64,000 bases of DNA, taken from the NCBI RefSeq assembly GCF_900172365.1, contig NZ_FWFJ01000018.1, forward strand, positions 1 to 64,000, given 5' to 3'. Under the pieces are notes generated by a model that saw only the letters and a program-made list of their open reading frames with translations, did not search any database and was not told the origin of the DNA. Positions 23,171 through 26,155 of this stretch are shown in pieces. Made by a program: the position numbers and the translations under genes. The first letter of the stretch is position 1; each line of letters opens with the position of its first letter. Source of the DNA: Roseovarius gaetbuli. Lineage in GTDB: Bacteria > Pseudomonadota > Alphaproteobacteria > Rhodobacterales > Rhodobacteraceae.

Positions 23171-23252
23171 TGCCTTCTTCTTGGAACAAATACTCCGGGG
23201 GAGTCCAAGAAAATTCGCCGAATTTTCTTGGATGGGGGCAGCGCCCCCGCTT
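23171..23252 (-). repeat. Dispersed intergenic repeat at the 3' end of dnaE2
   Basis: On the minus strand it reads GGGGGCGCTGCCCCC, an AAGAAAATTC/GAATTTTCTT hairpin, then CTCCCCCGGAGTATTTG. The head and tail are shared with the copy at 14107-14154. It begins within a few bases of the premature dnaE2 stop and fills most of the 172-bp gap before rpiA. Confidence 0.6.
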
Positions 23253-23257
23253 CTGCC

Positions 23258-26155
23258 TCACCCACCCGCGGGGGTGAGGATATCGCGCAACAGAGCCACC
23301 GGATGCGCCCGAAGCGTCAGGCGCAGGGCAACGTAATCCTCGATTACCTCTTCGCCCTCCGACATCTGCGGCAGATGCGTGAGCGGCTCGTCAATCGCCT
23401 CGCCGTCGATATCGCGCGCAAACAGCGGCAGCGGCGCATCCCCCTGCAACGCCTTGGCCTGCCAGAGCGCCTCGCGGCGGCTCAACCCGAGGACGGCAAA
23501 GGCATCGGCCTCGGCCAGCCGCGCCAGCGCACTCGGCACCAGTCCGGCGCGCCGCCAGACATCCTCGACCGTGGTATAGCCATTGCCGCGCGCCGCGATA
23601 AGCCAGCTGGCATCGTCCTGCGCCAGCCGCCGGATCAGGCGAAACCCAAGCCGAAGCGCCAGCCCGCCGCGCCCGTCGGGTTCCATCACATTGTCCCAAT
23701 AACTTGCCTGCACACAGACCGGGCGCACGCTCACCCCGTGTTCGCGCGCATCCCGCACGATCTGGGCCGGGGCATAAAACCCCATCGGTTGTGAATTCAG
23801 CAAAGCACAGGCAAACAGCCCCGGATGGTGGCATTTCAACCAGGCACTGGCGTAAACCAAAAGCGCGAAACTGGCGGCATGGCTTTCGGGAAAGCCATAG
23901 CTGCCAAAGCCCTCGATTTGCGAAAAACAGCGCTCGGCGAAATCCATGTCATAGCCATTGCCCTGCATCCCGCGCAAAAACCGCGCGCGAAACTCGGACA
24001 CATTGCCGTGGCGTTTGAAGGTGGCCAGCGAGCGGCGCAGGCGGTCGGCCTCTTCGGGGGTAAAGCCCGCGCCGATGATGGCGATCTGCATCGCCTGTTC
24101 CTGAAACAGCGGCACCCCAAGCGTCTTGCCCAGCACCTTGCCAAGCGCATCCGAGGGAAAGCTGGTCGCCTCTTCGCCATTGCGCCGCCGGATGAAGGGA
24201 TGCACCATATCGCCCTGGATCGGCCCCGGCCGGATGATCGCCACCTGGATCACCAGATCATAAAAACACCTTGGTCGCATGCGAGGCAGGAAATTCATCT
24301 GCGCGCGGCTTTCCACCTGAAACACCCCCAAACTGTCGGCGCGGCACAGCATGTTGTAAACCGGCCTGTCCTCTTGCGGCAGGCTGGCCAGCGTATAGTG
24401 CGCGCCGTGATGTTCGGCCAAAAGGTCGAATGCCTTGCGGATGCAGGTCAGCATGCCAAGCGCCAGAACATCGACTTTGAGAATGCCAAGCGTGTCGATA
24501 TCGTCCTTGTCCCAACAGATGACGGTGCGATCCTCCATGCTGGCGTTTTCAATCGGCACCAGCTCGTCAAGCCGCCCCTGGGTGATGACAAAACCGCCGA
24601 CATGCTGGCTCAGGTGGCGGGGAAAGCCGATGATCTCCTGCACCAGGGTCAGGGTCAGCGCGAGGCGGCGATCATCCGGATCAAGACCGATTTCGCGCAG
24701 CCGCCCCGGCGTCAGCGCGCCATCGCTGCCAAAGCCCCAGATTTGCGAGGAGAGCGCGGCAATCAGATCGCCCGACAGGCCCATCGCGCGCCCGACCTCG
24801 CGGATCGCACGTTTGCCGCGGTAATGGATCACTGTCGCACACAGCCCGGCGCGGTGGCGGCCATAGCGCTGATATATCCACTGGATCACCTCTTCGCGGC
24901 GCTCATGCTCGAAATCGACGTCGATATCGGGCGGCTCGTCGCGCGCCTCGGAGACGAAACGCTCGAACACCATGGTGCCGATCTCGGGGCTGACCGAGGT
25001 CACGCCAAGGCAATAACAGACCACCGAATTCGCCGCCGACCCGCGCCCCTGGCACAGGATGCCGCGCGAGCGGGCAAAGGCGACCACGTCATTCACGGTC
25101 AGGAAATAGGGCTCGTAGCGCAGCTTGCCGATCAGGCGCAATTCGTGTTCCAGAAGGGCGCGCACGCGTTCTGGCGCGCCGCCGGGATAGCGCCACTCCA
25201 GCCCCTCAAGCGCAAGACGACGCAGGCGGCCTGCCGGGCTTTCGCCCTCTGCGACCTCGCTGGGATATTCATGGCGCAGCTCATCCAGCGAAAAGGTCAG
25301 CCGCGCGGCAAGCGCGCCTGCACGCGCGACGGCCCCTTCACGGCCCTTGAACAGGCGGTGCATTTCAGCCCCCGAGCGCAGCCGTCGCTCGGCATTGCTC
25401 AGGGCGTCGCGGCCAAGATCATCCACCCGCGTGCCGAGCCGGATTGCGCTCAGCACATCCGCAAGCCTGCGCCGGTGCCCGCGATGCATGAGCGGCACCC
25501 CCGAGGCCAGCGTGGGCAGGCCGAGGGTTTTCGCCAGCCGGGTCAGCCGGGCAAAGCGGGCAGGGTCCTGACTGTCATAAAGCGGGGCGAGGACAAGGTG
25601 CATATGCCCGCCAAGGCGGCGCGTCAGCCGTTTCGCCTGTTGCTGCCAGTCATCCGCGCCGCGCGGCATCTGCTGCGTTTGTGGCGCATGTAGCAAAAGG
25701 TGAAGCCCCGAGGCCCCCGCCAACAGATCATCAAGGCGCAGCTCGCACCGGCCCTTTTTGCAGCGCAACCGCCCAAGGCTGAGCAAGCGGCACAGGCTGG
25801 CCCAGCCCGCACGATCATAGGGCAACGCAGTGAGCACCAGCCCCTCTGTCAGCACCAGCCGCGCGGCGGGTATAAGGCGCGGGGTGGTGGCCCATGCCGG
25901 ATGCGCGGCGGGGGCCACGGGCGGGGCCGGGCCGATCGGGCCATCGCGGGTCTCGATCTTGTGGCGCTCGCCGACCTGCCGTGCAATTTCGCGCGCCGCG
26001 CTATGGGCTCGCACGATCCCGGCCACCGAATTCTCGTCGGCAATGGCAAGCGCCGTGAGGCCAAGCGCGGCGGCACGATGGATATAGTCCTCGGGGTGTG
26101 CAGCCCCGGTGAGAAAGGTAAAGTTGGAAATGGCAGAGAGTTCGGCAAAGGACAT
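23258..26155 (-). CDS. dnaE2: Error-prone DNA polymerase DnaE2, C-terminally truncated
   Basis: A 965-residue C-family polymerase of SOS translesion synthesis. PHP domain (FAELSAISNFTFLTGAAHPEDYI at the start); polymerase Asp residues in EPPDIDVDFEHERREEV (about 400) and ILKVDVLALGML; fingers and helix-hairpin-helix region up to about 905. Usual DnaE2 length is about 1,050-1,100. Here the frame stops straight after HPVALLRDILTP, where the C-terminal OB-fold (about 110 residues) normally follows. The 172 bases downstream hold only a dispersed repeat, not a frameshifted remainder. No imuA or imuB lies upstream. A near-consensus LexA box lies 47 bases before the start. It may be functional, altered or decaying. 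Confidence 0.9.
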   Translation of the reverse strand: MSFAELSAISNFTFLTGAAHPEDYIHRAAALGLTALAIADENSVAGIVRAHSAAREIARQVGERHKIETRDGPIGPAPPVAPAAHPAWATTPRLIPAARLVLTEGLVLTALPYDRAGWASLCRLLSLGRLRCKKGRCELRLDDLLAGASGLHLLLHAPQTQQMPRGADDWQQQAKRLTRRLGGHMHLVLAPLYDSQDPARFARLTRLAKTLGLPTLASGVPLMHRGHRRRLADVLSAIRLGTRVDDLGRDALSNAERRLRSGAEMHRLFKGREGAVARAGALAARLTFSLDELRHEYPSEVAEGESPAGRLRRLALEGLEWRYPGGAPERVRALLEHELRLIGKLRYEPYFLTVNDVVAFARSRGILCQGRGSAANSVVCYCLGVTSVSPEIGTMVFERFVSEARDEPPDIDVDFEHERREEVIQWIYQRYGRHRAGLCATVIHYRGKRAIREVGRAMGLSGDLIAALSSQIWGFGSDGALTPGRLREIGLDPDDRRLALTLTLVQEIIGFPRHLSQHVGGFVITQGRLDELVPIENASMEDRTVICWDKDDIDTLGILKVDVLALGMLTCIRKAFDLLAEHHGAHYTLASLPQEDRPVYNMLCRADSLGVFQVESRAQMNFLPRMRPRCFYDLVIQVAIIRPGPIQGDMVHPFIRRRNGEEATSFPSDALGKVLGKTLGVPLFQEQAMQIAIIGAGFTPEEADRLRRSLATFKRHGNVSEFRARFLRGMQGNGYDMDFAERCFSQIEGFGSYGFPESHAASFALLVYASAWLKCHHPGLFACALLNSQPMGFYAPAQIVRDAREHGVSVRPVCVQASYWDNVMEPDGRGGLALRLGFRLIRRLAQDDASWLIAARGNGYTTVEDVWRRAGLVPSALARLAEADAFAVLGLSRREALWQAKALQGDAPLPLFARDIDGEAIDEPLTHLPQMSEGEEVIEDYVALRLTLRAHPVALLRDILTPAGG

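Follow-up and report, generated by a model that had tools for sequence, protein, structure and literature searches.

The ImuA-ImuB-DnaE2 mutasome is the described system closest to the locus reported here, and we know of no settled account of what the OB fold of DnaE2 contributes. A DnaE divided between two genes is known from cyanobacteria, in which the products are joined by a split intein. Several DnaE2 sequences devoid of the OB domain, as well as OB-less DnaE3 proteins, were reported by Timinskas and co-workers in 2014 (PMC3919608); the accessible part of that study names no taxon for them and mentions no separate OB gene. The same work describes a C-terminal SRDF[H/R] motif in about 77% of DnaE2s, the function of which was then called open. 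In the mycobacterial cassette, dnaE2 lies apart from imuA'-imuB rather than in one operon (PMC6511836). In AlphaFold models of the mutasome, DnaE2 and ImuB touch at PHP/ImuB-C and (HhH)2/thumb (PMC12926913). In the roseobacter P. inhibens, imuB and dnaE2 are said to share one operon and have the largest evolutionary-rate correlation among gene pairs (PMC10883770), and the accessible text of papers on the LexA and cassette genes of Dinoroseobacter shibae mentions neither an OB gene nor an insertion in ImuB (PMC6473078, PMC9426580).

The locus compared here with these systems lies in a 64,000-nucleotide stretch (the window) of genome G000, which is assembled in 144 contigs and is 99.98% complete. 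Its features are as follows:

23258..26155, minus strand: dnaE2 core gene, ATG at 26155, stop codon ending at 23258, 965 amino acids
26216-26202, minus strand: LexA-like box GAACAAAACGTGAAT, starting 61 bases upstream of the dnaE2 ATG
23204..23232, no strand: perfect palindrome with 14-nt arms, a dispersed repeat just past the dnaE2 stop

Translation gives a protein that ends in ...LRAHPVALLRDILTPAGG and scores 1217.9 bits against the NCBIfam model NF004225, above the curated cut-off of 939, which identifies it as a DnaE2. The match covers model positions 5-938 of 1047, leaving about 109 C-terminal positions missing, in agreement with the initial annotation, according to which the frame ends about 110 residues early. 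PHP, polymerase core, fingers, HhH and a PLPLF clamp-like motif are present and the stop precedes the OB fold: a Pfam scan returned the polymerase, finger and HhH domains and no OB fold (no PF01336), which two full-length relatives (L118 and L120) carry at about 973-1050, so that the absence of this region from the chain was rightly noted. No OB remnant was detected elsewhere in the window by tblastn, so that neither a frameshift nor a sequencing error explains the short protein. We take D410, D412 and D562 to be the counterparts of the E. coli catalytic triad, which agrees with an alignment to PDB chains. All three are unchanged throughout 24 aligned rows, three of them long forms, with a mean column identity of 69%; the presumed catalytic aspartates are thus kept, as was first claimed. 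A second dnaE2 was sought in the genome and none was found, the other match being DnaE1. The nearest named relatives in the tree are Roseovarius proteins, and an AlphaFold model of the protein (mean pLDDT of 63) was too poor for use.

A short DnaE2 is encoded at all 80 named genome loci returned (the best 80 of 594 matches), in Roseovarius, Ruegeria, Leisingera, Shimia, Phaeobacter, Maritimibacter, Rhodobacter and others, and the DNA fetched for these best 80 loci contains no OB-encoding stretch. Being the most similar to a short-protein query, these loci are not a fair sample, which is provided instead by a family-wide set (the family sample) of 150 genomes, each from a different genus. Sixty-six of these genomes encode a short DnaE2 (67 rows minus one contig-end artefact, and counting G199, in which the gene lies in two contig pieces). 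Among 150 distinct DnaE2 proteins, 100 were labelled short and 49 long, and one was set aside. The tails after residue 955 measure 8-66 residues in the short and 122-275 in the long proteins, without overlap. Of the 49 long rows, 46 have an SRDF[H/R]-like end; of the 100 short-labelled rows, two of which (L016 and L254) break off at a contig end, none has one. L254 (G067:C2), the artefact mentioned above, was rejected as a short form because the contig ends there and the protein groups with long forms. With the tail left out, a 109-row tree (quick search) groups the remaining 65 short rows in a single clade with an SH-aLRT of 100. A 46-row mixture-model tree, also a quick search, supports the short clade at 93; next to it stand the long-form proteins of G063 and G075 (93), and within it G135 branches off first. 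OB-less DnaE2 thus appears to be a trait of single origin in a large clade of Rhodobacterales, mostly roseobacters and their relatives. Two unusual cases were observed: a short-type dnaE2 in two overlapping pieces (G023:C6:200617-203482), and, in the 2.5-Mb genome G142, a strongly diverged short DnaE2 (L250, about 50% identity) accompanied by an ImuA match and by no ImuB at E 1e-60.

A search of G000 with the tail of the G063 DnaE2 returned a 155-residue frame at G000:C93:61813-62100 (E 7e-35, 63% over query positions 69-164); the remaining matches were the end of the window dnaE2 and DnaE1. This frame and its counterparts in two further genomes are stand-alone OB genes:

G000:C93:61771-62166 (L272:5772-6167), minus strand: OB gene of G000, open reading frame, 131 amino acids
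L285:15685-16074: OB gene of G031, 81% by tblastn, same neighbourhood as in G000
L315:12692-13087: OB gene of G034, 76%, same neighbourhood, near the site expected from gene order

The G000 protein, 131 residues long if it starts at the ATG that follows its LexA box, begins with MLDRTSAPATRPTWPRPPSALVAARL..., continues with the OB fold and ends in ...SQAVKTG. It matches NF004225 at positions 944-1040 with 117.5 bits (next model, 31.6) and PF01336 with 54 bits; since the window DnaE2 fits positions 5-938, the two proteins are complementary pieces of one family model. On contig C93 the gene is divergent from a ferredoxin gene and near mrp- and purD-like genes, all named by resemblance. The three proteins measure 129-131 residues and all come from the window's GTDB genus, G031 having been sampled as 16 stretches (320 kb). 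With dN of 0.17-0.21 against dS of 1.0-1.4 (dN/dS of about 0.15-0.18, Nei-Gojobori), the OB gene appears to be under purifying selection. SRDF[H/R] is absent from all three OB proteins and from the core, and hence from both halves. In these three genomes, the domain absent from DnaE2 is thus apparently encoded by a separate gene elsewhere in the same genome. The OB identities are compatible with an origin of this OB stretch in the present dnaE2 as well as in some other dnaE2 of full length. Three further genomes, sampled in part (G008, 280 kb; G135, about 168 kb; G099, 560 kb), showed no OB gene in stretches that do not take in the fdx-purD neighbourhood; the mrp gene found in those of G099 and G135 has no adjoining OB gene. 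An intein-mediated split of the cyanobacterial kind was rejected: there are 3 residues after ILTP in the core and about 34 before the Pfam OB match in the small protein, and inteins are too large for such short flanks. The resemblance to cyanobacterial DnaE is therefore that of a DnaE made from two genes, unlike it in that there is no room for an intein.

The other components of the mutasome are encoded elsewhere in G000:

G000:C80:683-2338: imuB, on another contig than dnaE2
G000:C56:9591-10064: imuA, on another contig than dnaE2

The initial annotation was right that imuA and imuB do not adjoin dnaE2 and mistaken in describing the system as lacking them, as the genome search that it proposed found both, each on another contig, and G000 holds all three mutasome genes. 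In the family sample, imuA is close to the short dnaE2 in none of the 66 genomes and imuB lies within 3.5 kb in five, and matches to both ImuA (E 1e-8) and ImuB (E 1e-60) occur in 63 of them; at these thresholds ImuA is missing from G189, and ImuB from G142 and G202. For long DnaE2 rows, imuB and imuA are both close in 61 of 71 (71 rows from 67 genomes, a few of them fragments; six further rows fall in neither class). Counted among these 61 is G075, in which imuA-imuB is divergent from the gene for a full-length DnaE2 (L265). G063 (L264, L261) has a full-length DnaE2 that groups with the short clade, and its mutasome genes lie apart. A C-terminal truncation of ImuA, suggested by matches that end near model position 157-164 of 189, was dropped because the frames run past the match; the C-terminal ends of these ImuA frames differ from the long type. 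Compared with the described mutasome, the same three protein families are present and dnaE2, imuB and imuA each have LexA-type boxes; unlike it, the genes are dispersed, DnaE2 is without the OB fold and SRDF[H/R] tail, the OB fold is encoded apart and ImuB carries an insertion of about 45 residues. The mycobacterial cassette is similar in that its genes are not in one operon, and differs in that its dnaE2 gene, in the part of the account available, is not described as divided (PMC6511836).

The LexA-like box first noted upstream of the window dnaE2 is indeed kept, one base off the perfect GAAC-N7-GAAC, as are most dnaE2 boxes. A LexA-type box precedes dnaE2 in 96 of the 100 short-labelled rows, 30 of them perfect, against 2.2 per 100 expected from mononucleotide shuffles, a count that is partly post hoc, as the pattern was made to take in GAAC-N7-GAAT after the window's box had been seen. 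The four rows without a box are L047, L081, the mislabelled L254 and G135, in which none was found in the 200 bases upstream of dnaE2. Such boxes also precede insertion-bearing imuB at 51 of 52 loci and imuA at 20 of 21, nearly all of those listed being perfect GAAC-N7-GAAC, and all three OB genes have a perfect box (GTTC-N7-GTTC), GTTCTATATTTGTTC in G000 and G031 and GTTCTAGCTATGTTC in G034, located 1-2 bases from the ATG. The boxes suggest that the four dispersed genes share putative LexA control.

We consider it probable that these genes encode a naturally split error-prone polymerase made of a core and an OB subunit, and that what is usually an imuA-imuB-dnaE2 operon is here a regulon of four scattered genes. 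At the level of sequence, this reading draws on the complementarity of core and OB protein, the clade-wide short form, the LexA-type boxes, the apparent purifying selection on the OB gene and the dispersal of the genes. By inference, the OB protein would join DnaE2, the four products would work as a single complex, and the OB gene may occur throughout the clade. Upon DNA damage, relief of LexA repression would lead to production of the core, the OB protein, ImuA and ImuB; ImuB would recruit the DnaE2 core, ImuA and the clamp, and the OB protein would bind the template single strand in trans. Because the PHP and (HhH)2 contact regions are present here, core and ImuB could assemble without the OB fold. 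The initial proposal of a reduced mutasome was too simple, as the OB fold is encoded by another LexA-boxed gene.

That the truncation is confined to this strain, whether through a deletion at the repeat or through a mistake in sequencing or assembly, now has a negligible probability. The perfect palindrome about 25 bases beyond the dnaE2 stop had invited such an explanation, and the repeat is real: its 19-bp core GAAAATTCGSCGAATTTTC occurs at 14 places in G000 (a reversed control pattern at none), directly after both dnaE2 (23204-23232) and imuB (G000:C80:2350-2368) and at 12 other places. Among 354 loci, it is found in those of G000 and its sister G001 alone, and since the short form is clade-wide, the palindrome was rejected as its cause; possibly it is a REP- or terminator-like element. 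The comparison with close relatives recommended by the initial annotation shows the truncation to be lineage-wide, the 80 best named loci being equally short and free of an OB stretch, the short proteins forming a single clade and the window holding no OB remnant. The short DnaE2 is real; neither a defect of the strain nor faulty assembly nor a repeat-linked deletion accounts for it. We regard as very improbable that dnaE2 is decaying and that the short form is an early stage of its loss. Broken copies in some genomes (such as G023), the diverged DnaE2 and missing ImuB match of G142, and four genomes of the same genus (G007, G010, G016, G021) without a proper match to DnaE2, ImuA or ImuB would fit such a course, against which stand the invariance of the presumed catalytic aspartates, the mean column identity of 69% (24 rows, three of them long) and the boxes of 96 of 100 rows.

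A weightier alternative, though in our view a doubtful one, is that the OB fold was simply lost from DnaE2 and that the small LexA-boxed protein has a job of its own outside the polymerase, such as that of an accessory single-strand-binding protein induced by damage. Both DnaE2 and DnaE3 are on record without an OB fold (PMC3919608), the ImuB contacts of DnaE2 in the accessible models involve PHP and (HhH)2 and not the OB fold (PMC12926913), and the OB gene was found in three genomes only. What this alternative leaves unexplained is that the small protein corresponds to the OB fold of DnaE2 and not to that of another family, as the gap between its two best model scores indicates, that it begins where the core ends and that its gene carries a LexA box like the others.

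The ImuB sequences read from genomes with a short DnaE2 have 42-53 residues between palm and thumb (G135: 7), versus 1-15 in those from other genomes, the exception being an ImuB of G105 with 41 residues at this site and no DnaE2 at E 1e-150. The insertion was scored as the residue count between aligned flanks, a loose pattern having been dropped for its false positives. A 52-residue insertion query matched in 62 of the 150 family genomes and in 2 of 387 genomes of the class sample, namely the window's own genome and one other of its family. By search, the insertion is present in 60 of the 66 short-DnaE2 genomes, to which reading added G182 and G204; G135 is without it, G142 and G202 gave no ImuB match, and the ImuB of G177, which is in pieces, was left out. 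G089 is the only genome with both a long DnaE2 row and the insertion, and possesses both systems (L251, L252, L253): a short DnaE2 and an insertion-bearing ImuB on C1, and on C4, a contig of 126,304 bases, a full imuA-imuB-dnaE2 cassette with an ImuB without insertion. The insertion-bearing ImuBs form one clade (support of 100, quick search), with that of G135 outside. Residues 165-182 have a mean conservation of 0.90, compared to 0.72 for the whole protein (40 rows), and rank 11th of 532; in the AlphaFold model of ImuB (mean pLDDT of 77.9) the insertion is mostly under 50, with a possible helix at 167-183.

The distribution of these traits suggests an order in which dispersal (G075, G063) preceded loss of the OB fold from DnaE2 (G135), followed by the ImuB insertion in the crown. 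As each change looks like one event, their association is not a statistical proof of a functional link. Within the split-polymerase reading, we tentatively consider as possible, while not expecting it, a four-part mutasome in which an SOS-induced OB subunit works in trans and is held in place by the ImuB palm-thumb insertion GDAIDQEARATRSRAAKRRHWERGG, beside the DnaE2 (HhH)2 contact. ImuB would then have gained its insertion after the OB fold left the DnaE2 chain; a docking role is a guess. An apparent intermediate, G135 (L246, L242, L268) has its genes on three contigs, the earliest short DnaE2 and an ImuB without insertion.

OB-less DnaE2s, the SRDF[H/R] motif and split cassettes were already known. 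A separate LexA-boxed OB gene and a clade-specific ImuB insertion are apparently new, as we found no published account of a separate OB gene or divided DnaE2, or of such an insertion, in open-licence full texts, supplements aside. An OB fold encoded by a separate gene amounts to a natural domain-separation experiment, as it can be removed without touching the polymerase, and makes the marine bacteria of this clade tractable models for work on the mutasome. The four genes also offer a clear case of components that keep one type of regulator box after the breakup of their operon.

The OB protein had no match among viral contigs and matched 829 plasmid records; among the 60 listed, most matches lie under an annotated error-prone polymerase and the others are unannotated, and a second OB query gave a similar picture among the 60 listed of 826 records. 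A Tritonibacter plasmid match was rejected as a stand-alone OB gene, since it proved on reading to be a full-length DnaE2. A plasmid of Rhizobium sp. Kim5 carries an isolated gene annotated as an OB fold (L355:3710-4465), whose product shares 47% identity with the OB protein; the annotation shows no polymerase for about 4 kb around it. Finally, insertion-bearing ImuBs and ImuA matches were observed together with no DnaE2 at E 1e-150 in G105 (L257) and at G115:C12.
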